DNA of 23,222 nt from a virus, in IMG/VR virus record IMGVR_UViG_3300042445_001514, positions 1 to 23,222 of that record; one strand, 5' to 3'. A program made the translations under genes and the position numbers. This document shows positions 1-23,222 of the stretch, piece by piece. Position 1 is the first letter of the stretch; the number at the start of each line of letters is the position of its first letter. The notes under the pieces are model-generated. The model was not told the DNA's origin. It made no database searches and saw nothing but the letters and a program-made list of their open reading frames with translations.

Positions 1-149
1 GTCATGCCGTAAGCTGGCTTGACGCCGACATCTGCCCCCGCAGTTGTGCCGTATCCGATAGTCCAGATGCCCACGATGTCTTGGTAAGCAACCAGCTTGC
101 AGCCCTCGAACCGCTTTATCAGATCAATGGTGGCCTGATTGACGCTCAC
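1..149 (-). CDS. Endolysin, T4-type lysozyme (GH24), N-terminal part
   Basis: This is the N-terminal 49 residues of a muramidase that would cleave peptidoglycan at lysis; the rest lies beyond the left window edge. Reading from a GTG at 149, it contains LIKRFEGCKLVAYQDIVGIW followed by TIGYGTT. Glu15, Asp24 and Thr30 have the same spacing (9 and 6 residues) as the T4 lysozyme catalytic triad Glu11, Asp20, Thr26. The GTG start overlaps the stop of the upstream membrane protein gene by 4 nt (GTGA), so the two are translationally coupled as a lysis pair. No signal peptide is visible, so export would depend on a holin. I am sure of the family; only the C-terminal part is unseen. Confidence 0.9.
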   Translation of the reverse strand, partial: MSVNQATIDLIKRFEGCKLVAYQDIVGIWTIGYGTTAGADVGVKPAYGM

Positions 150-391
150 TTACGCATCTCCCTCTGGATTTCATCTAGCTGTGTCAGGACGTTGGCAAAG
201 CCATCTTTGATTTCCTTAAGTTCGCGGTCGTGGCCTTGCTTGGTCAGATTGTATTCTGACTTCATGACAGCAATTTCTGTGTCGTGGCCCTGCGTCATCT
301 TGTAGTGCATCCACACGAAAGCCACGATTGGGATCACCGCAAATTGCAGCAGGAGTCGCGCTAGTTCCATTAAGTCCATCTCCTGCTGCAT
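146..391 (-). CDS. Small membrane-anchored coiled-coil protein, holin or spanin candidate
   Basis: This 81-aa protein has one hydrophobic segment at about residues 9-28 (ELARLLLQFAVIPIVAFVW). A charged, helix-prone coiled-coil tail (about 33-81) follows, ending in REMRK. Its place directly before the lysozyme gene, with a 4-nt overlap, points to a lysis role such as a holin or an i-spanin-like protein. I do not recognise a specific family. The start at 391 has AAGG 7 nt upstream. An internal ATG at residue 8 also has a GGAG 9 nt upstream, so a dual-start holin/antiholin arrangement is possible but unproven. Confidence 0.75.
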   Translation of the reverse strand: MQQEMDLMELARLLLQFAVIPIVAFVWMHYKMTQGHDTEIAVMKSEYNLTKQGHDRELKEIKDGFANVLTQLDEIQREMRK

Positions 392-400
392 GGTATTGCC

Positions 401-799
401 TTATGGTTTCGTCGGCCAAGCGACATTGTGGGGGAAGCCTGACTGCTGCGGGACATCAAGCAGTGCTTGGCGATAAGCAGTCCATGCGGCTTGCTGCTCC
501 GCAGTCATGCCGCTCCAACGCAACGGATTTGAGACAATGGGATCAACTTCATCTGCAAGGGTGTTATCGCGTGTGCTGCGGACAGCGGTCGCCTGTGCGG
601 CGTCACGTTCAGCTTGCGTGGGGGGGACGTAGGAAGCGGTAGCGGGATCAGCCGCCATTGCATCATACAGTGCAACAACATCAAACACTGCGCCAGTGTC
701 GGTCGGATCACAGGTGAATGGTATCCAGCCGTGGACGGGGTGGTTGATCTCGCAGTCGATTCGAGCGCCGTCAAGGTATTTTGCGTTGCGGTATTCCAT
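401..799 (-). CDS. Tail-fibre assembly chaperone-like protein (Phage_tail_APC type)
   Basis: This 132-aa protein starts at [11 protein letters not shown]. Its C-terminal half has the pattern of the phage tail assembly chaperone family: a helix with R-x3-D-x-T-L-A-x-E-x-D, then AAWTAYRQALLDVPQQSGFP and a WPTKP end. Such proteins help fold or attach tail fibres and are often encoded right after the fibre gene, as here. I chose the ATG at 799 because it overlaps the fibre stop by one base (TGATG). Longer starts at 817 or 871 would run into the fibre coding sequence. The N-terminal 60 residues (CEINHPVHGWIPFTCDPTDTG) resemble the usual linker region of these proteins. Confidence 0.75.
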   Translation of the reverse strand: MEYRNAKYLDGARIDCEINHPVHGWIPFTCDPTDTGAVFDVVALYDAMAADPATASYVPPTQAERDAAQATAVRSTRDNTLADEVDPIVSNPLRWSGMTAEQQAAWTAYRQALLDVPQQSGFPHNVAWPTKP

Positions 800-1635
800 C
801 ACGAAATCCTTAGCCATAGGGTGATAAGGTATTGCCCAGAACCAAAAACGCGGTTTCCCATACAGCGCCATGTTCCAGCTTGTGCAGAGCCAAGGGATTG
901 CGATGACGCGCTTCCTGACGTTGCATCGTATGTGAACGATCCACCGGGCAAAAGCAGACTTCCGGCAATAGTTGCCCCTGTGGTATAGTTGCTTGTGTTG
1001 TTAGGATAGGCAAAAATATATGTTCCAACATCACTTGCAGCCGCCCCAGCAGTAGCAGCCAATACAGCAGCCGTATTTGTTGCCGCCGTAATGGCTTGCT
1101 TTGTTTGCAGCGGCGTCATCAGTTTCGCCGCATCCGTGCCAGCTTCTGCCTCGGCTTGCGATGCCAAAATCGGGGCCAATGTTGGGTTGCCAGCAACGCC
1201 ATCGCCATTGGTGACAGTGATGGACGAGTTGCCAGTGATTGTGCGGCCAGTGAACGTGTCGGCGGCAGTCTGCGTCATTAGGCCAGCAGTGTTGTATGCA
1301 GCCAGCGCGGTCAGCGTAGCATCTAGGGCTTGCTTGGCGTCAAGTTGCGTCTGAATGGCAGAAGTGACGCCATCAACGTAACCAAGTTCTGTCGAAGTCA
1401 GACCAGCGGGCGTTCCCGCCAGTTTGTTAAGTTCAGCAGCAGTCGGAGTGACGGCTGTGCCGTCGATCTTCCACAGACCGCCAGATAGGTTTGGCTTGGC
1501 TTTTTGTGCGCCAGTGCCACCAAGAAGTGCGTCGACCGCATCGAGGTCCGCATTGACTTTAGTCCCCCATGTGTCCGAACTGGCCCCAACTTCTGGTTTT
1601 ACGAGGGCGTAGTTCGTCGTTGTTGTATCAGCCAT
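799..1635 (-). CDS. Tail fibre protein with shared C-terminal tip
   Basis: This 278-aa structural protein is probably a trimeric fibre. The N-terminus [20 protein letters not shown], followed by [13 protein letters not shown], is a common fibre attachment signature. The middle has AELNKLAG...[22 protein letters not shown] repeats typical of phage fibre shafts. The last 60 residues ([11 protein letters not shown]...YDATSG...[12 protein letters not shown]...TLWLRIS) match the end of the fibre gene at 2588-3307, so the two proteins share a tip domain that may be receptor binding. The GAGGGTAG ribosome site 5 nt before ATG supports the start. It lies 11 nt downstream of the preceding fibre-like gene. 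Confidence 0.85.
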
Positions 1636-1646
1636 CTATTCTACCC

Positions 1647-2531
1647 TCATTCAGACCATGCTGACGTATCAGCGGCTTGTGGTGTCCAACTGCCAGAGTT
1701 GGCGGTTTGCCCAGTCCATCCAGATGTCGCGCTATTTTGTGCCGTCCAAGGATCAGTGGCCGGAGTCTCTGGGGTCCAGTCTTCGCTATCTGCTGACTCA
1801 TCTTCCCATTTTTTGCGAGCAAATGCAACAAACGTGAGTTGGTTGGTCACAATTACGGACGCCAAGGCAATGCGCGTAGCGTTCGCGCTGACTGGAGATA
1901 GGACTGGAATGACCGCGCCTGACTCAAAAACGACATTAGCGGTTGCTGTTACGTCAGATATAGCAGCCAAAAAGGCAGCGCCTAGTTGGATGCGCTGGGC
2001 TAGTGCGGTTAATGCAGTGGTGTTTTGGATGGTCGCCGCGCCTAACAAGATGCGCTGTGCGCTGATAGTCTGGCTAGTTATGATGTCGATAGTCGAGGTC
2101 GGCTGCTGCACACGAGTGGCTGCTGCGACAAAGGTAGACAAGTTTGAGATGTTAGACGCAGCATCAGCTATACGCAGGGCGCTGCTGCTGACTGAAGTCA
2201 GCGCAGATATAGTCGAGCCTGTCAGGAAGACGATATTGGCAAGTGTGGTTACGGCAAATGTGCCAGTTATGGAAGACGCTGCTAGTTGGATCAGTTGTGC
2301 GGCACTTGCTAGTGCAGCAGCATTTTGAATGGTCGCCGCTCCAAGGAGGACACGTTCAGCAGCAATAGTCTGCTCTGCCGTAACCGCCAAAGTTGCGGCT
2401 GCTGATTGTAGATTACCCGCAGTTGCGGCAAAAGCTGACTGGACTGGAATAGCCGCAGCAACGTCAGTGACATCGCCTTCAGCATACCCTGTGATCCAGT
2501 AGTCAGGCTCAACGTAATACGGCGCGGGCAT
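1647..2531 (-). CDS. Alanine-rich repetitive fibre-like structural protein
   Basis: The 294-aa protein starts MPAPYYVEPDYWITGYAEGD. The body is low-complexity and rich in Ala, Thr, Ile and Ser, with two recognisable longer repeats around [ST/AE]-x-[QE]-R-[IV]-LLGAATIQN and QLIQLAAS / QRIQLGAA. The C-terminal about 45 residues form a tryptophan-rich repeat (DWTPETPATDPWTAQ, SGWTGQ, GSWTPQ, SAWSE). Its position between two fibre genes suggests a virion surface or fibre role. I do not recognise a named family. The start is probably coupled to the preceding 17-codon ORF, whose AAGGA lies just upstream. Confidence 0.75.
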   Translation of the reverse strand: MPAPYYVEPDYWITGYAEGDVTDVAAAIPVQSAFAATAGNLQSAAATLAVTAEQTIAAERVLLGAATIQNAAALASAAQLIQLAASSITGTFAVTTLANIVFLTGSTISALTSVSSSALRIADAASNISNLSTFVAAATRVQQPTSTIDIITSQTISAQRILLGAATIQNTTALTALAQRIQLGAAFLAAISDVTATANVVFESGAVIPVLSPVSANATRIALASVIVTNQLTFVAFARKKWEDESADSEDWTPETPATDPWTAQNSATSGWTGQTANSGSWTPQAADTSAWSE

Positions 2532-2534
2532 TGG

Positions 2535-2588
2535 TCATTCCTTATGTCTGGTAATAATGCCTGTCGTGCCGTTGATGGTGATGGACAT
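2535..2588 (-). pseudogene. 17-codon ORF, likely stub of a fibre gene start
   Basis: A 17-aa reading frame (MSITINGTTGIITRHKE) begins one base inside the stop of the fibre gene (TAATG) and ends 3 nt before the next start. MSITINGTTGI resembles the usual beginning of many phage fibre genes, so this may be a remnant left by recombination in the fibre locus. It could also serve as a translation-coupling leader for the gene at 2531, because its last codons supply an AAGGA ribosome site. Coding status is uncertain. Confidence 0.45.
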
Positions 2589-3307
2589 TACGAAATCCTC
2601 AACCAAAGGGTCGCAGAGTTAGTGTTTCCTCGGTTGTTCGCCCTGTTTCCCATACATTGCCACGTTCCAGCTTGTGCGGCTCCAGCGGTGCAAGTTGTGG
2701 CATTTCCAGATGTTGCATCATAAATGAGAGAGTTAACTGGTAGAAGAAGGCTTCCGGCTATTGTTGCGCCAAAAGCATATGCTGTTGAGTCATTCGGTCT
2801 GGCGTATGCGTATGACCCAACAGCACCAGCAGATAAACCTGCCGTTGCCGTGCCAACTTGTGCAGTTGTAGGTGCTGCGGCAGATGGGGTAACCCAAGAA
2901 GGCGCACTCGCTCCATTGGATTGCAAAACTTGCCCAGACGTTCCAGCGTCAGTTGCAGCCAATGTGGATGTGTCAGTCGCATAGGCAACGCCGCCAGCAG
3001 CAGTGAACGTGCCGAACGACTTGCCGTCAACAGATGCCGCATCGCCAGATATGCTGATAGCCCAAGTGCCAGATGCACCCGTTCCCGTTTTTGATGGGGC
3101 ATCGTTGGCAATCTCAGCATTCACGAAGGCGGTCGTGGCAATCTGCGTTGTATCGGTTCCGACAGTTGCAGTAGGTGCTGTTGGCGTCCCCGTAAAAGGA
3201 GGCGAAGCCAACTCCGCCTTGTCGTTGTTCAGATTGTTAAAATTGGCGTCCACCTCATTGTGCGTGAGTGGACTACCTTTTCCCGCCCGTGTGACTATGG
3301 TTGCCAT
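2588..3307 (-). CDS. Tail fibre protein, second copy of the shared tip
   Basis: The 239-aa protein opens with VTRAGKGSPLTHNEVDANFN, a widespread fibre N-terminal signature in which the segment attaches to the tail and short shaft repeats follow (SPPFTGTPTAPTA, TTQIATTAFVNAEI). The C-terminal 60 residues ([10 protein letters not shown]...YDATSG...AQAGTWQCMGNR...LWLRIS) are similar to the tip of the 799-1635 fibre. At the DNA level both end in AGGATTTCGT followed by an overlapping ATG of the next gene, which suggests duplication or exchange of the tip cassette. It is a tail component by family and context. Confidence 0.85.
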   Translation of the reverse strand: MATIVTRAGKGSPLTHNEVDANFNNLNNDKAELASPPFTGTPTAPTATVGTDTTQIATTAFVNAEIANDAPSKTGTGASGTWAISISGDAASVDGKSFGTFTAAGGVAYATDTSTLAATDAGTSGQVLQSNGASAPSWVTPSAAAPTTAQVGTATAGLSAGAVGSYAYARPNDSTAYAFGATIAGSLLLPVNSLIYDATSGNATTCTAGAAQAGTWQCMGNRANNRGNTNSATLWLRIS

Positions 3308-3314
3308 GTCAGGA

Positions 3315-3695
3315 TCAATCCAGTGTGATGTCTAGATCACCAGTCGGAACGCGCAGCACATCGCCAGAGGCAATCGTTTTTGATACAGTCAGATCGCCAT
3401 AAGCGATCAGAGTACCGCCAGTTACCGCAGTAAAGACGCCGACTGCTACAATGGTTCCCCACGCGCCGCCAGCAGTTGGGTATTCGATGTTTGCCGAATT
3501 AGATGCAGTATCCCCAGTTACAGTCATGGCAAATGACTGACGAGCGTAGGAAGTGCCGCTGCACTCAGTTCCGCCGCCAGTGTCTGTGGGGGCGACAGTG
3601 TAGAGGGCCAGATACCAAGCCGTGGGGCGCGTAACTGCGGTTGCAGTGAACAGCCACTCAAGCGTGGTGGTTTCAAAGGCGTTTGACAGGCTCAT
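3315..3695 (-). CDS. Small phage tail-fibre-family protein (LSNxxE type)
   Basis: The 126-aa protein starts MSLSNAFETTTLEWLF, followed by WYLALYTVAPTDTGGGTECS and SYARQSFAM. This pattern (LSN-x-x-E, then ALYTxAPTDxGGGTE and YxRQ) is characteristic of a small beta-rich structural protein usually annotated as a phage tail fibre protein. The rest is predicted beta strand with Gly/Thr turns. The ATG lies in a 4-nt overlap (ATGA) with the upstream connector gene and has a GGAG site inside that gene. It is probably a minor virion protein; its exact place in the particle is not shown. Confidence 0.75.
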   Translation of the reverse strand: MSLSNAFETTTLEWLFTATAVTRPTAWYLALYTVAPTDTGGGTECSGTSYARQSFAMTVTGDTASNSANIEYPTAGGAWGTIVAVGVFTAVTGGTLIAYGDLTVSKTIASGDVLRVPTGDLDITLD

Positions 3696-4318
3696 GCGAC
3701 AACTCCCGGCATTGGGGCGCGTAGCGGGCTTCCCGCATAACGACGACCAGCTTCAGCGTTAATGACAGACGCGAGCGTCTCGTCATACTCATTCTTCCAT
3801 AATGCCACACGTTCATCCTCTTTTAAATAGGTAGGAGTGTGACGCAGGACAGCGTAGGTGTAGAGGTCGAGATAGTCGTCGGCCAGCCACGAGGTGTTGG
3901 TCGTCGCAAAGTCAGGGATTTTGCTGTAGTAGGTCATAATGATCGACCGAGCAGGATTGTCGGTCGCTGCCATAGGACCGACAAAATACAGGGCGTCATT
4001 GGCAATAGTGTAGATCGGCTGGAAGACCGAGGCGTTCGCCAGTTTGATGCGCTCGCGTTCGTAGGGCGAGACATACTGCATGGGGGCAGGAGGACTATCA
4101 GATGTGATTGTCCGCATTTCCAGATAATTGGCAGGAAGAGCGATTGAGTCAGCGAGCAAGTCAGCGTTGGCGACGACAACCATGCGCTGAATCCGCAGAT
4201 CGCGGTTTAGGCGGGCGTGGCCCATGTTGACGATGTTGTCGAGGTCAGCCTCGAACACTGTGTCGCCGTTCCGCAAAAGGAACCGCGCAAGGTAGGCTTT
4301 GAAGTCAGCGTAGTTCAT
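3692..4318 (-). CDS. Head-tail adaptor/connector protein
   Basis: This 208-aa protein contains FEADLDNIVNMGHARLNRDL and IQRMVVVANADLLADSIALP followed by ANYLEMRTIT. This arrangement is familiar from proteins annotated as phage adaptor or head-completion proteins in short-tailed phages. The middle and end (IIMTYYSKIPDF, WLADDYLDLYTYAVLRHTPT) fit the same family, in which a helical core docks under the portal. It has 4-nt overlaps with the genes on both sides, inside the capsid-to-fibre part of the operon. Assignment is from pattern recall, so the precise family name is not certain. Confidence 0.7.
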   Translation of the reverse strand: MNYADFKAYLARFLLRNGDTVFEADLDNIVNMGHARLNRDLRIQRMVVVANADLLADSIALPANYLEMRTITSDSPPAPMQYVSPYERERIKLANASVFQPIYTIANDALYFVGPMAATDNPARSIIMTYYSKIPDFATTNTSWLADDYLDLYTYAVLRHTPTYLKEDERVALWKNEYDETLASVINAEAGRRYAGSPLRAPMPGVVA

Positions 4319-4617: not shown

Positions 4618-4618
4618 A

Positions 4619-4870
4619 TTATTCCTCAATGTAGGGCTTGAGGTAGCCGAGTTTGTTGTAATGCACAGCCAAATCAGTCGGCAGTTCAACGATGGAACCG
4701 GGCTGAATCAACGTCTCCATACCGCCGCCGTAGGGGCTGATTGCGCCGTTGATGACTTCGTATTTGGCCGTAGCTGGCTTTGCCCGCTTCTTGGGCGCAA
4801 TTTCTTCTGTCTTTTCGACTGCGATTTCGACATCGACTTCGACGACAGCGATTTCAGGTTGGTTAGCCAT
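4619..4870 (-). CDS. Hypothetical small head protein
   Basis: The 83-aa protein has an acidic, Val/Glu-rich N-terminus (about 1-25), a short lysine-rich stretch (APKKRAKPATAK), and a C-terminal part with YGGGMETLIQPGSIVELP. It follows the major capsid gene with a 51-nt gap, where small decoration or head-tail joining proteins are often encoded. I recognise no family. An AGGTG site precedes the ATG. Confidence 0.65.
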   Translation of the reverse strand: MANQPEIAVVEVDVEIAVEKTEEIAPKKRAKPATAKYEVINGAISPYGGGMETLIQPGSIVELPTDLAVHYNKLGYLKPYIEE

Positions 4871-11430: not shown

Positions 11431-11826
11431 CTAGTCAATCTTCTTTGCTGACTTCGCCCCTTGCAACTCAGGCAAGTTCAGCGTCCCGGCCAGCAGCCTC
11501 AAGTGGTGCGGCAAAGCACCAGCAACTTCAGAAGTCGAGTCAGCCAATTTCGCTTCTGCACTGACAGTCTCAACGCGGCCATAGGCTCGTGTGATCGCCA
11601 TCTCAATCAGCGCCATCTGATTGCGCGGCCCCATGCCTTCCCACTTCTCCTCGTCGTTCAGCATCTCGAACATCTTGAGGACAGCGCGGCGTCCATTCTC
11701 CTTCAGCAGCTTCGCGCTTGCAGCGTCCAGCGCATACCTGTCGTGGACAGCAGCCTTGCGGACCTGATCCTCTGGGGACGGCGGTACAACAACAAGTCTA
11801 GCATTTGGCAGTGGGCTATCAGTCAT
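11431..11826 (-). CDS. Terminase small subunit candidate
   Basis: A 131-aa protein starts MTDSPLPNARLVVVPPSPED. A helical centre (SAKLLKENGRRAVLKMFEML, then MGPRNQMALIEMAITRAYGR) follows, with a basic end QGAKSAKKID. It is the first gene of the minus-strand operon and lies just upstream of terL, where the DNA-recognising small terminase is normally found; size and helical content agree. I assign it by position and general form rather than a diagnostic motif. The longer 201-codon frame is rejected because GGAGG sits 5 nt before the ATG at 11826 and the extra 70 codons cover operator-like DNA. Confidence 0.6.
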   Translation of the reverse strand: MTDSPLPNARLVVVPPSPEDQVRKAAVHDRYALDAASAKLLKENGRRAVLKMFEMLNDEEKWEGMGPRNQMALIEMAITRAYGRVETVSAEAKLADSTSEVAGALPHHLRLLAGTLNLPELQGAKSAKKID

Positions 11827-11915
11827 GGGTTCCCTCCAGTTGCCAAAAGTATAGCGACAGAAAGTCGTTGTGTCCACAGGGGACGGAGCGCCAGCGTAGT
11901 CCACCTGTAGTGGAC

Positions 11916-11954
11916 TGCGCGTAGGGGATAAAGCCTCGCGCATAGGACATATGG
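11916..11954. repeat. Regulatory repeat copy A (ATAAAGCC element)
   Basis: This 39-bp element runs TGCGCGTAGG, GGATAAAGCCTCGCGCATAG, GACATATGG. It closely resembles the 38-bp element at 12968-13005 in the same orientation. It lies about 90 bp upstream of the terminase small subunit start. A third core, ATAAAGCCTCGC, begins at 11972, 44 bp after the core of this copy. It is likely a protein-binding region controlling the divergent operons; this is inferred from repetition and position. Confidence 0.5.
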
Positions 11955-11991
11955 CAATAGCGCGTTCGTTCATAAAGCCTCGCCCGCGATA

Positions 11992-12077
11992 TTGCAGCGA
12001 AAAATTTTGTGGTGCGGTTTCGCCCCCAAAGTACACTACTACTTATAGTAGTGTAAAAATTTGCAGCGAAAAATTTT
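11992..12077. repeat. 17-bp direct repeat pair flanking a palindrome
   Basis: TTGCAGCGAAAAATTTT occurs identically at 11992-12008 and 12061-12077, 69 bp apart, on either side of the perfect palindrome at 12032-12055. The AT-rich tails stand out against the GC-rich surroundings. This looks like an operator/promoter block for the leftward operon or a part of a replication origin. Confidence 0.6.
12032..12055. promoter_or_regulatory. Perfect 24-bp palindromic operator-like site
   Basis: TACACTACTA and TAGTAGTGTA are exact 10-bp inverted arms around CTTA. Dyads of this size usually bind a dimeric regulator. It also holds TATAAG on the minus strand, which could act as a -10 element for the leftward late operon, although no good -35 is visible at the right distance. 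It is not followed by a T-run on either strand, so a terminator is unlikely. Confidence 0.55.
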
Positions 12078-12085
12078 TGAGGTCG

Positions 12086-12131
12086 CTGACTCGGCCTGAC
12101 TCATCCTGACTGGCCCTGACTCACGCTGACT
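12086..12131 (+). repeat. Five CTGACT boxes at exact 10-bp spacing
   Basis: CTGACT begins at 12086, 12096, 12106, 12116 and 12126, with a variable 4-nt filler after each (CGGC, CATC, GGCC, CACG). The constant hexamer and exact 10-bp step put all boxes on one face of the helix. That fits iterons or an array for a cooperatively binding protein; the binding protein is unknown. Confidence 0.75.
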
Positions 12132-12157
12132 CGACGTATGAAATTTCTCGGAAAATA

Positions 12158-12203
12158 TAAAAAATGCGGGCTTTGGCGCACGAAAAAGTAAAAAATGCGG
12201 GCT
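12158..12203. repeat. 15-bp direct repeat pair, 31 bp apart
   Basis: TAAAAAATGCGGGCT occurs at 12158-12172 and 12189-12203, about three helical turns apart, just beyond the CTGACT array. The A-tract plus GC box could be a bent or bound site. Function unknown. Confidence 0.55.
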
Positions 12204-12323
12204 GTCGGCCTGTTAGGGTGTCAAAATAAAACTGCCCGCCCCCGCCGCCACCCCGTGGGGGGTCACGCGCCAAAGTCAGCCCTGACTCAGCCTAAGCCCT
12301 TGAAATTGCTACACTTTCCCCTT

Positions 12324-12411
12324 GCCCTGACTTGGCCCTGACTGGACGCCGCGCATCCCTGACTTGGTTCAAGGTTGAACCATTTTGCCGCCCTGACTTG
12401 GCCCTGACTGG
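12324..12411. repeat. 22-bp direct repeat containing two CTGACT boxes
   Basis: The segment 12324-12345 is repeated exactly at 12390-12411. Each copy contains CCCTGACTTGG followed by CCCTGACTGG, that is, two CTGACT hexamers 11 bp apart. A 7-bp-arm inverted repeat (GGTTCAA / TTGAACC) at 12366-12381 lies between the copies. The downstream copy runs into GCCCGCCGCC, the same core as the array after the AAA+ cassette. Confidence 0.6.
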
Positions 12412-12568
12412 CCCGCCGCCGGATGCGTGACGCGCCGCCGCTGACTGGCCCGCCGCCCGCCGCGCCGTGCTGACTGAGGCGGGCGGGCGCGGCGGGCGGT
12501 CGCGCACGAGGTTGGGCCAAGCCTATGACTTGCATAGCCAATGGCTAACCACATCCTGACTTGGGTAG

Positions 12569-12661
12569 GCAATGCTTAGGCATTGCTTAGGCTTGGCCTA
12601 TCTTGGCCCTATGCCTGCATGGGCCTGACCTATGCAGGGCATAGGCAATGCCTAATTAGGC
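12569..12661. repeat. Nested inverted repeats (cruciform cluster)
   Basis: GCAATG/CATTGC arms (12569-12586) are followed by a long imperfect hairpin at 12608-12645. Its 13-bp stem is CCTATGCC-TGCAT against ATGCAGGGCATAGG, with one bulged base and an 11-nt loop. Then come AGGCAATGCCT (12643-12653) and the perfect dyad GCCTAATTAGGC (12650-12661). ATTGCTTAGGC also recurs directly. Such density of dyads is typical of origins or multi-site operators. Confidence 0.6.
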
Positions 12662-12738
12662 CAGATCGGGGGCAGATGTTCGATTTGTGATAGTAAATCC
12701 TGACTTTTGCATCCTATCCATTGCTTAGGCTGGACCTA

Positions 12739-12795
12739 ATGGCCCGCAGAGGCCCGCAGAGGCCCGCCAGAGGGCCATGCCGCTTGGCCTAGGCC
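12739..12795. repeat. 10-bp tandem repeat inside an inverted repeat, plus GGCCTAGGCC
   Basis: GGCCCGCAGA is repeated twice, with a third divergent copy, at 12741-12770. ATGGCCC (12739-12745) and GGGCCAT (12772-12778) bracket it as an inverted repeat. The perfect palindrome GGCCTAGGCC follows at 12786-12795. No gene lies here. Confidence 0.5.
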
Positions 12796-12967
12796 TTCCC
12801 CTATCTCACCCCTGACTTCGCATTCTGCGGGGTTTGTGCTGTTCTCTGGCGCTGTATCGCCCGCCGCCCGTTAGATCACGCCTCACCGCTTGGCCTTGGG
12901 CCTCAGATCGTCAGACAACTGTGTCCGCGCCGTCCTCGCGCCAGCGGGGGCGGTGTCTATAGGACAC

Positions 12968-13005
12968 TGCGCGAGGCGATAAAGCCACGCGCGAGGCTGA
13001 TATGG
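12968..13005. repeat. Regulatory repeat copy B (ATAAAGCC element)
   Basis: This 38-bp element (TGCGCGAGGC, GATAAAGCCACGCGCGAGG, CTGATATGG) matches copy A at 11916-11954 at most positions and in the same direction. It lies about 150 bp upstream of the AAA+ ATPase gene, as copy A lies upstream of the terminase operon. Paired placement before both divergent operons suggests shared regulation. Confidence 0.5.
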
Positions 13006-13025
13006 AACCGCGCGCGAGGACGTTG

Positions 13026-13090
13026 CAAACCATTGAAATCATTAGGTTATTTTCGGTGTTTTTTCGTCACGATCTTACAAACCATTGAAA
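13026..13090. repeat. 13-bp direct repeats 52 bp apart upstream of the AAA+ gene
   Basis: CAAACCATTGAAA is found at 13026-13038 and 13078-13090, both followed by A/T-C-ATT. The 52-bp separation is close to five helical turns. Related AAAACATTG words recur at 13088 and 13101. These are probably binding sites for a regulator of the rightward cassette. Confidence 0.5.
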
Positions 13091-13111
13091 ACATTGCATA
13101 AAACATTGTTC

Positions 13112-13140
13112 TTGCACTGTCTGACTTGACTTTGTATAGA
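13112..13140 (+). promoter_or_regulatory. Possible sigma70-like promoter
   Basis: TTGCAC (13112-13117) and TATAGA (13135-13140) are separated by 17 bp, each with four of six consensus bases. Transcription would start near 13147, which is after the GAGGTG ribosome site (13139-13144) of the ATG at 13152. If this promoter is real, translation would more likely start at the ATG at 13182. This conflict keeps the call weak. Confidence 0.35.
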
Positions 13141-13151
13141 GGTGGCGGGCG

Positions 13152-14348
13152 ATGTTGCCCGACCTGCTAGGATTGACCGCCATGCACCTGACTAACGCTG
13201 ACCGCGCCACCCTTCGCCGCTTGATTGCGGCGCATCCTGACTGGCCCGCCTACCGCCGCTTGCACGGCGTTGACACGTCCAGCTTGGGCGCATCCCGCGC
13301 CCTTGAAGTGGCCCGCCACCTTGGGATTGACACCGCCCACATCACAAACAAAACAGAGGACGCCCACACCATGACAACACCGCCCACCGCCCCCGCTGGC
13401 CTTTTCAACACCGCCGCCCGCCCTTACGTCAAACCCGCCGCCGCCCCTGTTGTGGCCCCAAGCGTTCAATCCGCGATGGACGCCTTGCTTGCCGCCTTAT
13501 CGGCTCAACAGGGTAGCGGCGAGGCGCTCGAGGCCCTAACCTCGAGGGTGGAAACGCTCGAGGCCCAAGCGCCTCGCTTGCTCGTTGTCAACGAGGCGGG
13601 CGAGGCGTGGGGCGCTGACTTGCCACCCACGCGCCACCCGATGTTGGAAACGCTGATCCTGACTGTGGCGGCGCGTGACTTGGCGGGCCACCGCATAAAC
13701 GCATGGCTTGCTGGCCCCGCTGGCTCTGGCAAAACAACCGCCGCCCGCATGGCGGCGGACGCCTTGGGCCTGACTTTCGGGCCAATGGGGGCCATGAGCC
13801 AAGCGCACGAATTGCTTGGCTTTGTCGATGCAAACGGCACTTTCCATGAAACGCCGTTCACCCGCGCTTATCGGGCGGGCGGTGTTTGCTTGTTGGATGA
13901 ACTGGACAGCGCGGACGCCTCGATAACGCTTTTGCTCAATGGACCGCTCGACAACGGGCTGTTGACCCTGCCCACGGGCGAGGTGATCGCCCGTCACCCT
14001 GACTTTGTTTGCATCGGGGCCGCCAACACTTGGGGAAGCGGGGCCACCGCAGAATATGTTGGCCGCAACCGCCTCGACGGGGCTTTTCTGGACCGCTTTG
14101 CGGGCCTTGATTGGGACTATGACGAGGCGCTTGAAACCGCCATTGCTGGTAATGCCGTTTGGTCTGGCCGTGTCCAGTCAGCGCGGCGGCGGGCGGCGGC
14201 GGCGGGCCTCAAAGTGCTGATAACACCTCGATCCTCGACGCGCGGCGCTGCCCTAATCCGTCAGGGCCTCGACGCTGACGCCGTGGCCCGTATGACCTAT
14301 TTGAAGGGGTTGACCGCCGCCCAAATCTGCCAAGTGGAGGGCTTCTAA
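13152..14348 (+). CDS. MoxR/CobS-like AAA+ ATPase
   Basis: The 398-aa protein has an N-terminal helical region, an Ala/Pro-rich linker (about 75-105), a short coiled coil (about 105-140), and a AAA+ module. Walker A is GPAGSGKTT at 188-196, Walker B VCLLDELD at 245-252, sensor 1 GAANTWG at 289-295 and an arginine-finger segment NRLDGAFLDRF at 306-316. This matches the CobS-like ATPases carried by many phages, which resemble cobaltochelatase or MoxR remodelling ATPases and whose phage role is unknown. GAGGTG lies 7 nt before this ATG; an ATG at residue 11 (13182) has AGGA 9 nt upstream. GC is far above that of the flanking operons. It is coupled by TAATG to the next gene. Confidence 0.85.
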   Translation: MLPDLLGLTAMHLTNADRATLRRLIAAHPDWPAYRRLHGVDTSSLGASRALEVARHLGIDTAHITNKTEDAHTMTTPPTAPAGLFNTAARPYVKPAAAPVVAPSVQSAMDALLAALSAQQGSGEALEALTSRVETLEAQAPRLLVVNEAGEAWGADLPPTRHPMLETLILTVAARDLAGHRINAWLAGPAGSGKTTAARMAADALGLTFGPMGAMSQAHELLGFVDANGTFHETPFTRAYRAGGVCLLDELDSADASITLLLNGPLDNGLLTLPTGEVIARHPDFVCIGAANTWGSGATAEYVGRNRLDGAFLDRFAGLDWDYDEALETAIAGNAVWSGRVQSARRRAAAAGLKVLITPRSSTRGAALIRQGLDADAVARMTYLKGLTAAQICQVEGF

Positions 14349-15214
14349 TGCTGCACCTTGATCTGAAAACCTCGACGGGCCAGCGCGTGGCGGCGGCGCG
14401 TTTTGACGCGCCGGAGGATTTCGCGGCGTTTCTTGCTGGCCCCGTTGCGGCGGCGGGCTGTGATCACTGGCTCGAGGACAACCGCTCATTTCACGGGGCC
14501 AGCACTCTTGACACGCTCAAGCGGGCGCAACGGGGTGACCTATCGCGGGTGGCCCTTGCTGACGCCATGCTGGCCCGCCTCGAGGACGCCGTGGGCTTCG
14601 AGGCGCGGCGGTGGCGCACTGTTGACAGCGTGGCGGGCGGTGCGCCCAACGTGGCGGCGTTTCTGGCTGGCTCGCCCGTGTCCATGCGGCGGCGGGTGCG
14701 AATGATGGACGCCGCCGCCCCGCTGACTATCGCGGTTGAAATGGTAGTCAGCGCAAACGCTGACAAAGCCAGCATTGCACGGCGCGGCGCGGCGGCGCTG
14801 GCCTTGGCCCGTATTGCGGCGGGCCAGCGCCCCGTGGCCCTTTGGGGTTACTACGTTTGCCGTGACGACGACGACAAAGCCGCCGCTTACGCTGTCAGGA
14901 TCGACACCGCCCCGCTCGACACCTCGAGGGCGGCGTGGCTGTTGTGCGCCCCTGAGGCTTGCCGCCGCGCGGCGTTTGCCGTTTGCTCTCAGATTGGCGG
15001 ATGGGACCGCCACAGCGGGCGGGTGCGCTGGCTTCCCGCCCACGCCGCCGCCGTGGCCTCGATCCTGCCCGCCCTGACGGGTGCGGGTGATCTAGTCAGC
15101 GTGGCGGGCCTCAACACTGACGAGGGCGGGCTGGCCTTTGCCACAGACGAGGCGGCGGCGGCGTGGGTCAAGTCTGCACTGGCCTTGCATGGCGGTGTCG
15201 AGCGGGCCAGCTAG
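14348..15214 (+). CDS. Partner protein of the CobS-like ATPase (possibly DUF7192-like)
   Basis: The 288-aa protein overlaps the ATPase stop by one base (TAATG), implying joint function. It has FxGASTLDTLKRAQRGD near 57-73, GGAPNVAAFLAGSPVSMRRR near 97-116, and a core LTIAVEMVVSANADKASIAR followed by RGAAALALARI. The NVxxFLxGxPxxM and later beta-strand/helix pattern recalls a phage family I know as DUF7192, which sits beside CobS-like ATPases. The core may be a degenerate von Willebrand A-like fold, by analogy with MoxR-VWA and CobS-CobT pairs. No metal-site DxSxS motif is visible, so that is inference. The gene is very GC-rich and rich in CTCGA words. Confidence 0.65.
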   Translation: MLHLDLKTSTGQRVAAARFDAPEDFAAFLAGPVAAAGCDHWLEDNRSFHGASTLDTLKRAQRGDLSRVALADAMLARLEDAVGFEARRWRTVDSVAGGAPNVAAFLAGSPVSMRRRVRMMDAAAPLTIAVEMVVSANADKASIARRGAAALALARIAAGQRPVALWGYYVCRDDDDKAAAYAVRIDTAPLDTSRAAWLLCAPEACRRAAFAVCSQIGGWDRHSGRVRWLPAHAAAVASILPALTGAGDLVSVAGLNTDEGGLAFATDEAAAAWVKSALALHGGVERAS

Positions 15215-15230
15215 GCCCGCCGCCCTGACT

Positions 15231-15259
15231 GGCCCGCCAATGGCGGGCCTATTCTTTCG
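15231..15259 (+). terminator. Intrinsic terminator after the AAA+ cassette
   Basis: GGCCCGCC (15231-15238), loop AAT, and GGCGGGCC (15242-15249) form a perfect 8-bp all-GC hairpin, followed by TATTCTTTC. It lies 17 nt after the stop of the partner gene and would separate the cassette from the downstream operon. Confidence 0.7.
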
Positions 15260-15278
15260 CCTTGCCCCTGCCCGCCGC

Positions 15279-15568
15279 CAGCACCTGACTGGCCCGCCGC
15301 CGCCCTGCCCGCCGCCCCGCCGCCGCCAGCACCTGACTGGCCCGCCGCCGCCGTGACTGGCCCGCCCTGCCCGCCGCCGCCAGCACCTGACTGGCCCGCC
15401 GCCCTGCCCGCCGCCGCCAGCACCTGACTGGCCCGCCGCCCTGCCCGCCGCCGCCAGCACCTGACTGGCCCGCCGCCCTGCCCGCCGCCGCCGCCAGCAC
15501 CTGACTGGCCCGCCGCCCTGCCCGCCGCCGCCAGCACCTGACTGGCCCGCCGCCGCCCTGACTGGCCC
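15279..15568 (+). repeat. 37-bp GC-rich tandem repeat array
   Basis: Seven units start with CAGCACCTGACTGGCCCGCC at 15279, 15327, 15381, 15418, 15455, 15495 and 15532. The intervals are 48, 54, 37, 37, 40 and 37 bp. The differences come from gain or loss of CCG/GCC triplets or an extra partial CTGACTGG unit. Each unit continues with GCCCTGCCCGCCGCCGC. No plus-strand gene covers it; minus-strand frames are Gly/Arg/Gln low complexity. The array lies between the terminator and the promoter of the early operon. Every unit carries one CTGACT in the same direction. Confidence 0.85.
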
Positions 15569-15622
15569 GCCGCCCGCCGCCCGCCGCCGCCCTGCACCTG
15601 ACTTTAGGGGCTTGATTTTTAA

Positions 15623-18780: not shown

Positions 18781-20066
18781 TGCTGACCCCTTTGCCGACA
18801 CAAGTCGAAGACGCTGACTTTCTAGTCAGGCAGCGCCGGGCGTGTCTGTTTTCAGAACCCGGAACAGGCAAGACGCTGACTGCCTTAGAGGCATGGAAGC
18901 AAGTAGGGGGGCGGCTCGTCGTAGTCGCCCCACCCATCGCCCTTGGGATGTGGGCGAAGAACATCGAAGACCACTGCGGCAAGAAGGCGCAGCGCATCAA
19001 GAGCGGCAAAGACAAGATCGACCCCAAGGCTGACGCCTACGTCATGTCTTATGCGATGGCTGGCAAGTTTGCCTTGCGCCCTGATGTGCTAGTGCTGGAC
19101 GAGGCGGACGCCTTAAAAACGCTATCGTCAGAGCGCACCAAAGCTATCTTTGGGGTGCGCTGCAAGATGGACGAGTGCCTAGCTGATGGTGTGCCTTACG
19201 TCTGGTTCCTGACTGGGACGCCGATCAGGCGCTATGCCGACGATCTGTATCCCGTGCTGCAAGCCTTCTGGCCCAATATGCTCAAGAAATACTTTGGCGT
19301 GTCGTCGCTGTCTGGCTTCCAGCAACAATTCTGCGTCACGCAGATGCGGCGCTTCCACCCGCGCCAGCCTATGAAAGCGACAGTTATAGGCAACAAGAAC
19401 GAAGACCAACTGCGTGACTTCATCTACAAGAACCAGATCGCCGTCAGGCGCACAATGGCGGACGTTTCTGCCTATATGCCGCCCCTGACTATCAGGACAG
19501 TCACTGTGGACTACGACAACAGTGAAGAACTGCGCGAGGCGACAGGCGAGGCAGTCTATGCCGGAGAGGCTGACCCGATTATGGCGAAGGCCCGCAGACT
19601 GCTTGGCGTTGCCAAGGCGCACTATGTGGCGGAGTATGTCTACGATGTGTGGGAGCAACTGACTTGCCCTGTGCTGATCCTGTATTGGCACAAGGACGTA
19701 GGCAACGCGCTGGCGGACTACTTCGAGGGCAAGAAGCTGAACATCCGAAAGATCGACGGCGCAACTTCGCAAGACAAAAGGGCCGAGGCAGAGGCAGTCT
19801 TCAACGCCCAAGAGTGCGACATACTGCTGGGCCAGATCGCGTCTATGGGTGTCGCCATCAACTTACAGAAAGGCAGTCACTATGCCGTTTTCGCAGAGCG
19901 TGATTGGTCCCCCGCTGCCCAAGAACAGGCTATGCGCCGCCTCTGGCGGCTTGGGCAAGATACCCATGTGCAGATCGACATCTGCGAGGCAGAGCATCCG
20001 ATGGATGAGGCTGTGGGCATGGTCGTCGCCCGCAAGGGCAAGTCAGCCACCAAGATCATTGATTAA
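18780..20066 (+). CDS. SNF2-type DEAD helicase/translocase
   Basis: A 428-aa superfamily 2 enzyme with all core motifs. The N-terminal LPTQ comes first, then motif I EPGTGKT (26-32), motif II DEAD in LVLDEADAL (107-110), and motif III LTGTP (144-148). The second domain has LILYWHK (299-305), GQIASMGVAINLQKGSH (351-367) and motif VI QAMRRLWRLGQ (383-393). The Q-A-x-R-R-x-x-R-x-G-Q form points to the SNF2 family. It is compact, with no extra domains. It likely moves along duplex DNA in phage replication or recombination. It follows the 147-aa gene by TGATG overlap. Confidence 0.85.
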   Translation: MLTPLPTQVEDADFLVRQRRACLFSEPGTGKTLTALEAWKQVGGRLVVVAPPIALGMWAKNIEDHCGKKAQRIKSGKDKIDPKADAYVMSYAMAGKFALRPDVLVLDEADALKTLSSERTKAIFGVRCKMDECLADGVPYVWFLTGTPIRRYADDLYPVLQAFWPNMLKKYFGVSSLSGFQQQFCVTQMRRFHPRQPMKATVIGNKNEDQLRDFIYKNQIAVRRTMADVSAYMPPLTIRTVTVDYDNSEELREATGEAVYAGEADPIMAKARRLLGVAKAHYVAEYVYDVWEQLTCPVLILYWHKDVGNALADYFEGKKLNIRKIDGATSQDKRAEAEAVFNAQECDILLGQIASMGVAINLQKGSHYAVFAERDWSPAAQEQAMRRLWRLGQDTHVQIDICEAEHPMDEAVGMVVARKGKSATKIID

Positions 20067-20077
20067 GGAGAACCGAA

Positions 20078-20260
20078 ATGAGTGACACAAGAAAGCAAAA
20101 GAAGAACAAGGCTTCTGGTGACAGGATGTGGGGTATTTTTAGCCCGCTATGGACTGGTGCAGAAAAGAGAAAATACAAAGAAGAACTGCGCCAGCAGCAC
20201 GAAAAGGTAGAAAGAAAAAAGCGTGATCAATTTCGCCACAATGCAGAGGAGAAAAAATGA
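20078..20260 (+). CDS. 60-aa highly basic protein
   Basis: MSDTRKQKKNKASGDRMWGI followed by a lysine/arginine/glutamate-rich helix ending FRHNAEEKK. AAGGAG stands 7 nt before the start. The charge suggests nucleic-acid contact. No family recognised. Confidence 0.65.
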   Translation: MSDTRKQKKNKASGDRMWGIFSPLWTGAEKRKYKEELRQQHEKVERKKRDQFRHNAEEKK

Positions 20261-20745
20261 GTGACGATCTGATCAAGCGCAGTGATGTTTTGTCTATGAT
20301 TGAGGCGTTCGAGCGTGACTTTTATAAGTCTTGGAGAGTGCAGTTCCGCGCAAATATAGACGCCATCCCCGCTGTGCCGACCCACAGTTATGCTGGCGAA
20401 AGCCAAGCATCTGTGTATGACCGCAAAGGGTTCCCGCCCATTGGGCTGCAAGGCCATGCCCACGCCCCGTTGCTGACAGCCATCCCCGCCGTAAAAGATG
20501 ACCGCATCGAACAGTTGGAGCGTGGAATGGATGCACTGCAAGACCGCCTAGACACTGCGAATAAAGCGCGGGCGGATGCGAACTTTCGGGCAAATGAAAA
20601 TCAATTCAAACTCGCCGAGGCAATGGAGGCGCTGCGGAAGATTGCAGCATACACGCATATCGGGACGCACGAACAGGGTATTGTCCAAAACGCCGAAGCA
20701 CGGATTGCTTGCACCGCGCTGGCTAAACTGGAGGGCGGGGAATGA
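20257..20745 (+). CDS. 162-aa hypothetical coiled-coil protein
   Basis: The N-terminus MSDDLIKRSDVLSMIEAFER is a common start among small phage proteins. The middle has AGESQASVYDRKGFPPIGLQ, and the C-terminal half is a coiled coil (IEQLERGMDALQDRLDTANK, then AEAMEALRKIAAYT). It overlaps both neighbours by 4 nt. Function unknown. Confidence 0.65.
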   Translation: MSDDLIKRSDVLSMIEAFERDFYKSWRVQFRANIDAIPAVPTHSYAGESQASVYDRKGFPPIGLQGHAHAPLLTAIPAVKDDRIEQLERGMDALQDRLDTANKARADANFRANENQFKLAEAMEALRKIAAYTHIGTHEQGIVQNAEARIACTALAKLEGGE

Positions 20746-20819
20746 GTAACATCATTTACGAAGCCATTGGCCTAGCCGCACTGGTCTACGCCGGATACCT
20801 CATCGAATTGTGGAAGTAA
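20742..20819 (+). CDS. 25-aa single-pass membrane peptide
   Basis: MSNIIYEAIGLAALVYAGYL, then IELWK: one hydrophobic segment (about 4-21) with an aromatic/lysine end. The ATGA overlap with the upstream gene and the 2-nt gap to the next support it. Function unknown. Confidence 0.55.
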   Translation: MSNIIYEAIGLAALVYAGYLIELWK

Positions 20820-20821
20820 GA

Positions 20822-21130
20822 ATGCGAGTCAGAGTAAGAGACAAGATTTACAAGTCAGTCAAAGAGGTCGCAGAAGTTTTTGACATGACGGAAGAAGGCG
20901 TCTACGGCGCAATCTCAAGAGGCAAAGAAGACTTGATTGGTCTGGGGCGAACTAAGCCAAAGAAAGTCGTCATTGGCCCCGTTGAGTTTCGGTCTATGCG
21001 TTCAGCCAGTGAGGCGCTAGGCTTACCACGAAAGGCATATGCCGACATCATCAGTCGAGGCGGAGTGAAAAGGATAGCGATGCTAGAAGCGGCAATCTCT
21101 GCCTATCTTGAGAAAGTGAGTCAGCAATGA
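20822..21130 (+). CDS. DNA-binding protein with duplicated HTH (NUMOD1-like)
   Basis: The 102-aa protein starts MRVRVRDKIYKSVKEVAEVF. Two similar helix-turn-helix segments are visible: KSVKEVAEVFDMTEEGVYGA followed by ISRG (about 11-34), and RSMRSASEALGLPRKAYADI followed by ISRG (about 57-80). This S-x-x-E-A-[hydrophobic]-x-[hydrophobic]-x-x-G/T pattern is that of the small DNA-binding repeats found beside homing endonucleases (NUMOD1/IENR1). No nuclease domain accompanies it, so a regulator is likely. The GTG at 20810 is rejected because it lies inside the previous gene. Confidence 0.7.
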   Translation: MRVRVRDKIYKSVKEVAEVFDMTEEGVYGAISRGKEDLIGLGRTKPKKVVIGPVEFRSMRSASEALGLPRKAYADIISRGGVKRIAMLEAAISAYLEKVSQQ

Positions 21131-21342
21131 CTTTGACTGCAATCAAGCACGTTATCATCAGAAGTCCTGCTGCATTTAGCAGTTCTGAGATACCAGAAAG
21201 GGTCGTAAGTCTGACTTGTCCACCTTGGGAAAAACCTGATGCAGAGCATACAAATAAAGCTGTTAAACTTGCTCAAGCGCGCAAAACAGTTGCTCTCGAC
21301 ACAGAACGACAGCGAGTTAAAGACAAGTCTGGACGAGATTGA
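21127..21342 (+). CDS. 71-aa hypothetical protein
   Basis: MTLTAIKHVIIRSPAAFSSS followed by a TCPPWEKPDAE segment and a basic helical C-terminus. It overlaps the HTH gene by 4 nt. Its last third shares DNA with a second frame at 21239-21379, so either this end or that frame may be non-coding. Confidence 0.55.
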   Translation: MTLTAIKHVIIRSPAAFSSSEIPERVVSLTCPPWEKPDAEHTNKAVKLAQARKTVALDTERQRVKDKSGRD

Positions 21343-21379
21343 AGACTTGGTAAAAAGGCTCTTGCGCGGTGACAGATGA
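21239..21379 (+). CDS. 46-aa helical ORF overlapping the previous gene in another frame
   Basis: The frame gives MQSIQIKLLNLLKRAKQLLS, then LKTSLDEIEDLVKRLLRGDR, a convincing amphipathic helix. It ends in an ATGA overlap with a 22-codon ORF. The first 104 nt lie over the end of the 21127-21342 gene. No clear ribosome site is seen, and coding is uncertain. Confidence 0.4.
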   Translation: MQSIQIKLLNLLKRAKQLLSTQNDSELKTSLDEIEDLVKRLLRGDR

Positions 21380-21444
21380 CTGCGCTAGGACTATGGTCTG
21401 GGGGGCGCATCCAAGCGGCAATGGACGTTTTGAAGCAATGGTAA
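21376..21444 (+). CDS. 22-codon ORF
   Basis: It encodes MTALGLWSGGRIQAAMDVLK then QW. It starts in an ATGA overlap with the 46-aa frame. Very short; I see no independent support. Confidence 0.3.
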   Translation: MTALGLWSGGRIQAAMDVLKQW

Positions 21445-21509
21445 GTTGACGGACTGCGCTACGGCCCAATCAATAGTAACCAAGCCCCCCGACGAATTTG
21501 GAGAGAACG

Positions 21510-21809
21510 ATGACTTCTGTGCGAGAGAATATCCTAAGTCAGGCAGCGGATATAACAGCGGGCGACCGCGAGAAAGATTACGGCAATCCGCACGACAATC
21601 TGACTAACATGGCGCGGCTCGTCCAAGCCTACCTGTTCGGGAAGCACGGCATCGAAGTAGACTTGGATTCCGAGGACATGGCTTGGATCATGTTGCTGCT
21701 GAAAGTTGCGCGATCATCCACGGGCTACAAGCACGACAACTATGTGGACGCCGCAGCCTACGCCGCCATCGCTGGCGAGTGCCGAAATACTATCAACGAT
21801 AGGGCTTGA
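21510..21809 (+). CDS. DUF6378/MazG-like protein
   Basis: The 99-aa protein has GDREKDYGNPHDNLTNMARL, VQAYLFGKHGIEVDLDSEDM, AWIMLLLKVARSSTGYKHDN and YVDAAAYAAIAGE. This is the pattern of DUF6378, a small helical family related to MazG-type NTP pyrophosphatases (RxxxYG..., D-x-A-x-[IM]-M-x-x-[LV]-K-x-[AG]-R, HxDNxVDxAGYA). Some acidic residues of true MazG are in place (Glu/Asp in the DSED segment), but activity is not certain. GGAGAG before the ATG decides the start over an upstream TTG. Confidence 0.75.
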   Translation: MTSVRENILSQAADITAGDREKDYGNPHDNLTNMARLVQAYLFGKHGIEVDLDSEDMAWIMLLLKVARSSTGYKHDNYVDAAAYAAIAGECRNTINDRA

Positions 21810-21835
21810 CAGCCTACAGACTACCGCACTACTCT
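21806..21835 (+). promoter_or_regulatory. Possible promoter before the nuclease gene
   Basis: A perfect -35 TTGACA (21806-21811) overlaps the stop codon of the DUF6378-like gene. TACTCT (21830-21835) stands 18 bp further, with only three of six consensus bases. It would give a transcript start about 105 bp before the nuclease gene. Confidence 0.4.
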
Positions 21836-21842
21836 ATATCCA

Positions 21843-21923
21843 GACAAACACACACGACACGTTAACTTCTATGACCATGACCAGCGCACCACGCAACGGC
21901 CCCATGTTCAGTCTGTGTTTGTC
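21843..21923 (+). other. Leader with 10-bp inverted repeat upstream of the nuclease
   Basis: GACAAACACA (21843-21852) and TGTGTTTGTC (21914-21923) can pair across a 61-nt loop, just before the GGAGG ribosome site at about 21936 of the nuclease gene. An 18-codon ATG frame within it has no ribosome site. It could fold the leader or mark a transcription attenuator. Confidence 0.4.
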
Positions 21924-21946
21924 CTAACGCAAACTGGAGGGCTACT

Positions 21947-22969
21947 ATGGCAATCGACCTATTCAAGTATATCGAAGAAGGTGTCGCGCTGAACAAGTCA
22001 GCGTGGCCGCTGTTTGGTGAAGATGACGTTTACCTTGACCGCAATTCGGTCCTGACCGCTTCCGAAAATCTGCGCTGCTTGCGCGAGTTGAAGTTCTCCA
22101 AAACCACACCCCGCGAAAGCGACAAGTGGGGCATGGCAGAACGGGGCCACGCCGTCGAGGCTTGGGTGGTCGAGCAACTGCGCCGCGCCATGCTGCTGCC
22201 GATGTTCGCTGGCGATCAGCAGCGGTCCTTCCTGCACGACGAGAGCGGTCTGTCAGGCACTCCTGACGGCCTTGTCATGGTGGAAGGCAAGTGGATACTG
22301 CTGGAGTTCAAGTCAGTCGATCCGCGCACCAATCTGGAAGCGATGACGGCTCCTAAGCCGCAGCACTTGGCGCAAGTGCAGCAGAATATGTGGCTGCTGA
22401 ATATGCACGACTACACTGTCGATGAGGCGATGGTGCTGTATGTCGATGCCTCTGACTTCCAGCGGCACAAGCAGTTCAACGTGGCATACGACAACGGCGA
22501 CATGGCGCGGCGGGCAGAAGTCCGCGCAGCTATCTTGTTCGACACCGATGTGATGGATTTGCCCGCAGAGGGCTTGACCAACAACGGCTGCACCTACTGC
22601 GCCTTCAAAGAGGAATGCAGCGCCATTCAGGTTGCCAAGGGCGAGAAGCGCAAGTCCGACAAGCCGTCGATGCCTGTCTTCGCCCCTCGCGGCATCACTG
22701 AGTCAGTCAGGGAATACGGCTCCATCAAGGAGCAGATCAAAGAATTGGAAGCCCGCGCAGACGATCTGGCGGCTACCATCAAGGAGTATGCAACAGGCGA
22801 GAACCAGATGGAGTTCGACACTGCTGCCTACAGCGTCAAAGTCACGGAAGTGGCTGGGCGTAAGACACTGGATACTGCGGCCTATGCGAAGGCCACGGGA
22901 GTCAGTGCAGACGGGTTCTACAAGGTCGGCAAGCCGACTATCCGTCTGGAAGTTACAGCAAAAACCTAA
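21947..22969 (+). CDS. Cas4-like PD-(D/E)XK exonuclease with four cysteines
   Basis: The 340-aa protein carries RecB-type motifs: GHAVEAWV with His68, GTPDG with Asp107, and LLEFKSV with Glu120 and Lys122. QHLAQVQQNMWLL follows (about 139-151). Cys44 in the N-terminus (NLRCLRELKF) and Cys215, Cys218 and Cys224 in CTYCAFKEEC (C-x2-C-x5-C) are arranged like the iron-sulfur cluster ligands of Cas4/AddB nucleases. The C-terminal 100 residues add a coiled coil and a small beta domain (AYSVKVTEVAGRKTLDTAAY). It likely resects DNA ends for phage recombination. GGAGG precedes the start. Confidence 0.85.
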   Translation: MAIDLFKYIEEGVALNKSAWPLFGEDDVYLDRNSVLTASENLRCLRELKFSKTTPRESDKWGMAERGHAVEAWVVEQLRRAMLLPMFAGDQQRSFLHDESGLSGTPDGLVMVEGKWILLEFKSVDPRTNLEAMTAPKPQHLAQVQQNMWLLNMHDYTVDEAMVLYVDASDFQRHKQFNVAYDNGDMARRAEVRAAILFDTDVMDLPAEGLTNNGCTYCAFKEECSAIQVAKGEKRKSDKPSMPVFAPRGITESVREYGSIKEQIKELEARADDLAATIKEYATGENQMEFDTAAYSVKVTEVAGRKTLDTAAYAKATGVSADGFYKVGKPTIRLEVTAKT

Positions 22970-22989
22970 ACATAGCCAAGGAGATCATC

Positions 22990-23222
22990 ATGGCAAACGA
23001 AGTAACCACCTCGCCGTTCGGCGGACCTGTCGCCCTCGTCAACGCCCAAGCAATGGCAGATGCAGTCACAGCATCCGCAGCGCAGGGCCAGATCGGCGGC
23101 GCACCTGACGGCTCTGTCTACCTCAACTTCACTGGTAAGCGCGGCGTCTACGAGTTCGGTAAGGACAAGGAAGACATCGACGCCAGCGAATTGTGGCTGG
23201 TGAACATCGCGTCCTTCGAGGA
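22990..23222 (+). CDS. Phage protein after the nuclease, N-terminal part
   Basis: The first 77 residues (MANEVTTSPFGGPVALVNAQ ... GSVYLNFTGKRGVYEFGKD ... ELWLVNIASFEE) are seen; the gene runs past the right edge. AAGGAG stands 7 nt before the ATG. In phage recombination modules the nuclease is often followed by a single-strand DNA-binding or annealing protein, and YLNFTGKRGVYEFGKD could be the start of such a beta-rich protein. I do not recognise the family. Confidence 0.65.
   Translation, partial: MANEVTTSPFGGPVALVNAQAMADAVTASAAQGQIGGAPDGSVYLNFTGKRGVYEFGKDKEDIDASELWLVNIASFE

Follow-up and report, generated by a model that had tools for sequence, protein, structure and literature searches.

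CTGACT is iterated across the genomes of a podovirus group, with an AAA+/DUF7192 gene pair as a candidate component of a putative reader

Analysis of a 23,222-bp stretch of viral DNA (positions 1 to 23,222 of IMG/VR record IMGVR_UViG_3300042445_001514; hereafter, the window), which encodes an SU10-type portal and capsid protein according to Pfam, revealed that the hexamer CTGACT is iterated throughout on both strands. Our preferred reading, to which we assign a probability of about 0.4, is that CTGACT is a lineage-specific word spread across the genomes of a podovirus group, kept there by selection on double-stranded DNA and read by a phage factor. The initial annotation of the window had estimated about 110 copies (71 CTGACT and 39 AGTCAG) and a roughly tenfold over-representation. 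An exact count gives 71 and 40, respectively, or 111 in all, and the tenfold figure is right against base composition, which predicts 10.4–10.8 copies. CTGACT is the most over-represented hexamer in the window, and its 18 one-mismatch neighbors occur in only 2–31 copies each, which indicates that the word is exact.

Table 1. Coordinates of the iterated word, its arrays, and the adjoining gene pair in the window
Feature	Position	Strand	Remarks
CTGACT/AGTCAG word, 111 copies	1..23222	both strands	exact count
Non-coding region, 17 CTGACT and 1 AGTCAG	12037..13151	+	between the gene at 11431–12036 and the ATPase gene
Five CTGACT at exact 10-bp steps	12086..12131	+	similar 10-bp spacing seen in relatives
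AAA_5 ATPase gene, 398 aa, NorQ/CobS/CbbQ-like; putative part of the reader	13152..14348	+	Pfam AAA_5, 1.8e-12; phrog_249
DUF7192 gene, 288 aa, NorD/VWA-like model; putative part of the reader	14348..15214	+	Pfam DUF7192, 1.5e-10
Second one-sided array, 10 CTGACT and 0 AGTCAG	15225..15603	+	mostly CTGACTGGCCCGCC context

The size of the excess varies with the null model chosen. When the arrays (12037–13151 and 15215–15620) are masked, 83 copies remain, compared with 10.1 expected from composition and with 10.9, 18.4, 30.1, and 53.5 expected under Markov models of order 1, 2, 3, and 4, respectively, where the order 4 expectation largely soaks up the word itself; at order 3, the background proposed in the initial annotation, the expectation does not come near 110. 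Within genes, 86 copies are observed versus 18.5–19.4 after within-gene synonymous codon shuffling (z ~15; range of codon-shuffle z for CTGACT, 11–18), and the two halves of the window, scored separately, give z values of 10.1 and 11.5. Codon or amino acid preference alone is thus insufficient, as had been suspected, and dipeptide use does not wholly explain an excess that persists under this shuffling. The earlier description of sites in several reading frames and in non-coding DNA was accurate: all open frames on both strands are occupied (24 and 21 sites in sense frames; 3, 21, and 13 in antisense frames), the third sense frame being closed to CTGACT by its TGA stop, and 29 sites fall within 2,784 bp of non-coding DNA, a density of 10.4 per kb versus about 4 per kb in genes, both values being approximate because gene choices were mechanical. 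The balanced orientation noted for the left half (19 + and 21 − sites up to 12,036) and the strong asymmetry between 12,060 and 13,151 (17 CTGACT to 1 AGTCAG) are likewise exact. An RNA-level signal was considered and rejected, since sites in the window show no sense bias (44 sense, 51 antisense); in the relative G008, sites lean to sense (93/38).

The ATPase and DUF7192 genes are flanked by two CTGACT-dense arrays. The second of these, together with the lineage-specific words and the link to the gene pair described below, had been absent from the initial annotation; it lies largely inside a 37-bp tandem repeat just downstream of DUF7192 (15362–15554; 5.1 copies, 96%), each unit of which contains one CTGACTGGCCCGCC.

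In order to follow the word through its lineage, we compared the window with 18 loci encoding TerL proteins 82–100% identical to its own. Whether related phages share the word had been raised by the initial annotation, and they do: CTGACT is the top over-represented hexamer, at approximately 7- to 10-fold, in all relatives of at least 11 kb and in all nine longer genomes examined, with 127–163 copies in each genome of 39–42 kb. The signal is weaker in the short fragments L023 and L026 (1.5 copies per kb). Relatives with 74–76% identity share about half of the CTGACT sites, twice the hexamer background, while counts in these relatives and in the window are about equal, indicating that individual sites turn over and that density is kept. 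Where amino acids are unchanged relative to G008 (76% identical), 21 of 24 CTGACT sites are retained compared with 40% of other hexamers (Fisher p 2e-6), and in protein-conserved windows of four other relatives retention is 75–90% versus 40–69%. Because CTGACT is kept more often than other hexamers at unchanged protein, losses are avoided, as expected from selection on the DNA word. Biased gene conversion favoring CTGACT could mimic such selection, and the data fit either process.

The word changes in a more distant cultured phage. Sinorhizobium phage phiM5 (MF074189, locus L028), whose TerL is 47% identical to that of the window, contains only 6 CTGACT versus 18.5 expected. It carries instead 423 copies of TGACA/TGTCA in 44 kb against 60.8 expected, a 7-fold excess (codon-shuffle z 32); this is the densest word found, in a cultured phage whose host, Sinorhizobium meliloti, is a laboratory organism. 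In one host sample, 50 kb of the plasmid pSymB, TGACA is depleted (29 versus 64 expected), although 5-mer usage otherwise agrees between phage and host (r 0.72). In phiM5, the sole relative with a known host, this contradicts a word common to phage and host. The initial annotation had named recombination (Chi-like), primase, uptake, methylation, and packaging signals as possibilities and favored none of them.

Other phages have words of their own. A search with the ATPase recovered Tunturi_4 (PP885687; loci L057 and L068), with 195 TCCTAG versus 41 expected in genes, and mycobacteriophage LeBron, with 161 CTTAG versus 59 expected in genes, which is the weakest of the word-rich cases. Both TCCTAG/CTAGGA and the palindromic word CCTAGG are strongly over-represented in Tunturi_4; in bacteria, words that contain CTAG are usually rare. 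A CTTAG/CTTAAG lean, weaker than that of CTGACT, was also seen in cluster L mycobacteriophages and in Gordonia phage Syleon (loci L098–L103, comprising Faith1, Whirlwind, and Douge, and loci L064 and L065). Of 80 viral loci subsequently collected with an ATPase profile, three contain a word at z ≥9 on about 20 kb. Held-out DNA, meaning further parts of the contigs outside those used in word choice, bears out the words AACAGA (88 versus 15 expected), GCTAGC (29 versus 4), and TGGCCA (106 versus 31), while in 17 control phages no top word exceeds a z of 5.4 on held-out DNA. When words and phages are cross-tabulated, each word is enriched 2.5- to 12.7-fold in the phage to which it belongs, and its enrichment in the other phages does not exceed 1.4-fold.

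In all word-rich phages found (those with CTGACT, TGACA, TCCTAG, CTTAG, AACAGA, GCTAGC, or TGGCCA), the AAA_5 ATPase gene adjoins a DUF7192 gene, and no other gene family as widely common to them was found; this result is partly circular, because five of the seven word-rich lineages came via the ATPase search. DUF7192 was present in 0 of 14 and then in 0 of 121 random viral records, and in all five CTGACT genomes of at least 39 kb. The near relatives and allies MW202711, MW202496, MW202879, C72C1, and tf have neither a comparable word nor DUF7192. Scored over 12-kb pieces, 37 DUF7192 loci have a median z of 5.5 for their strongest word, compared with 4.4 for the 121 random loci (p 1.4e-7; GC-matched p 1.8e-7). 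These p values are optimistic, because some of the 37 loci are related to one another (L188, L194, and L195) and because the initial cases were already known when the loci were compared. A z of at least 7 is reached in 8/37 DUF7192 loci and in 1/121 random loci, and the median for the strongest word is 4.5 in 28 loci that carry just a related ATPase. A strict one-to-one link between pair and word was rejected, as phage K, AM24, MW202803, CECAV04, and L168 carry the pair with no outstanding word. Many DUF7192 carriers have no strong word, and among word-poor DUF7192 phages no gapped word stood out. The AAA+/DUF7192 pair alone is insufficient for a word. The related DUF7192 contigs L188, L193, L194, and L195 have enriched TTTAAA/GTTTAA-type words in common.

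The ATPase matches PDB profiles of midasin, CobS, CbbQ, and NorQ, and is accordingly of the MoxR/CbbQ/CobS type of AAA+ protein. An AlphaFold2 model of DUF7192 built from 39 sequences (pLDDT 85) was searched with Foldseek, where the VWA domain of NorD is the best match and the only one in the PDB below an E value of 0.001, although it is weak (E 5e-4, probability 0.97, TM 0.31). Within BFVD, the model retrieves other DUF7192 proteins first, followed by phage CobT and VWFA proteins. Together these predictions suggest that the ATPase and the adjacent DUF7192 protein are probably a MoxR-type AAA+/VWA pair, resembling NorQ/NorD, CobS/CobT, and CbbQ/CbbO in gene adjacency and in the ATPase profile match, with a weak structural match for the second partner. 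MoxR/VWA pairs remodel enzymes and insert metals, and the known pairs act on enzymes; we know of none that reads DNA. The pair was evaluated as a known defense system and had no PADLOC match, an NCBIfam search gave only weak AAA matches, and one scan of bacterial contigs for related genes gave weak generic ATPases only. A search of open-licence papers for DUF7192, which is found in phages and has no known function, returned none.

Because unrelated phages with the pair have exact words of their own, at a density comparable to that of CTGACT, we regard the pair as the leading candidate for part of the reader. A phage-encoded factor acting in trans would read the word and would act differently on word-rich (phage) and word-poor (host) DNA, which could steer replication, repair, protection, or packaging to phage DNA, with the NorQ/NorD-like AAA+/DUF7192 proteins as part of the reading machine. 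That phage and host DNA would be separated in this way is suggested by the sole host sample, 50 kb, being depleted in the word of its own phage. A broader proposal, which we advance only tentatively, is that each lineage has a private word of 5–6 bp at approximately 3–10 copies per kb, the density of which would be read by a phage AAA+/VWA-like machine in order to tell phage from host DNA, as a form of self-recognition.

Among the alternatives, the one that survives best, and which we consider possible if somewhat unlikely, is that the word is read by the phages' own replication or recombination enzymes, either for initiation by a Prim-Pol primase/helicase or as a Chi-like stop or loading site for a Cas4/RecE-like exonuclease, the AAA+/DUF7192 pair being a fellow traveler. 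The CTGACT group encodes a Prim-Pol/helicase, a family A polymerase, and a RecE/Cas4-like nuclease, phiM5 carries the same kinds of genes (primase/helicase, polymerase, and nuclease), and short non-palindromic words on both strands fit a primase or Chi-like role. However, phages that have no word commonly carry primase/helicase and RecE-type exonuclease genes too, and no organization of CTGACT orientation along the genome was seen outside the arrays, which argues against a reader of this kind.

It is improbable, in our assessment, that a structural DNA-binding protein (nucleoid-like, or involved in packaging or segregation) sits on the word and nucleates at phased arrays. The 10-bp runs, found in the window and in relatives, would place sites on the same helix face, and density is highest in non-coding DNA, both of which favor such a protein; against this, a candidate binding protein was not identified and spacing is Poisson-like outside the arrays, with no even periodicity.

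Quite improbable as well is a modification-linked origin similar to that of HIP1, in which CTGACT is marked by a methylase and then created or preserved through repair or restriction. HIP words, too, are iterated, and from one lineage to another both the word and its methylase are replaced (PMC4390886); several of the words in other phages, including TGGCCA and GCTAGC, are palindromes, as in the modification-linked case. CTGACT differs from its own reverse complement and is therefore not palindromic, unlike a HIP1-like methylase word. Methylation had been among the signal types listed in the initial annotation, but a phage-encoded methylase is unsupported, since five methyltransferase families (PF01555, PF00145, PF02086, PF02384, and PF05869) had no match in six CTGACT genomes, phiM5, LeBron, or G028–G030; Tunturi_4 gave a sub-threshold Dam match only. 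Finally, a functionless artefact of composition, codon usage, or mutational context is scarcely credible, as mild hexamer biases do occur in phages (z 4–9 on 40 kb in 22 controls) but do not account for a codon-shuffle z of about 15, the sharpness of the word, its enrichment in non-coding DNA, and its conservation at synonymous positions.

We return to the preferred reading, a lineage-specific word read by a phage factor, and to its place among known systems. The uptake words of Neisseria and Pasteurellaceae are 9–10 bp long and belong to competent cells. They resemble CTGACT as short, exact words present on both strands, at hundreds to thousands per genome, whereas CTGACT is shorter and words of this kind differ from one phage group to another. 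Chi is likewise short, non-palindromic, exact, over-represented in some phages, and used in self/non-self discrimination, but in lambdoid phages it is the host's own word, present at about 0.2 copies per kb and over-represented about 2.4-fold (PMC3784561), whereas the CTGACT group has 3–5 copies per kb at 7- to 10-fold and a phage-private word, and the word of phiM5 is depleted rather than over-represented in the pSymB sample. HIP1, a palindrome of cyanobacterial chromosomes that has cognate methylases (PMC4390886), is similar in being iterated genome-wide and in giving way to other words in other lineages, and differs in its symmetry and its methylases. Phage tf, which has a related portal protein, also repeats a word at its localized nick sites (TACT/RTGMC; PMC3517423), but there are 14 of these on one strand only, compared with 127–163 CTGACT per genome on both strands. 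We therefore file the CTGACT system as like the iterated words and as a member of none of the Chi, HIP1, and nick-site families.

Most genome-wide iterated words known so far, such as Chi, uptake sequences, and HIP1, are cellular, and among open-licence papers we found no earlier description of such a word system in phages. The words hint at a phage means of marking or handling its own DNA; if true, a phage-private word that is conserved at synonymous positions, differs between lineages, and tracks with an unstudied gene pair would represent a novel means by which viruses label their own DNA. The link between word and pair also offers a handle on DUF7192 that is testable in the cultured phage phiM5.

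Two minor observations concern the window itself. Similar short segments (cgcgaggc...ataaagcc...) recur at 11920–11990 and 12970–13010, at either side of the 12037–13151 non-coding region, and are possibly regulatory or terminal sequences. The gene at 21498–21809 bears the PHROGs name phosphofructokinase and belongs to Pfam family DUF6378, so that the PHROGs name looks mislabeled.
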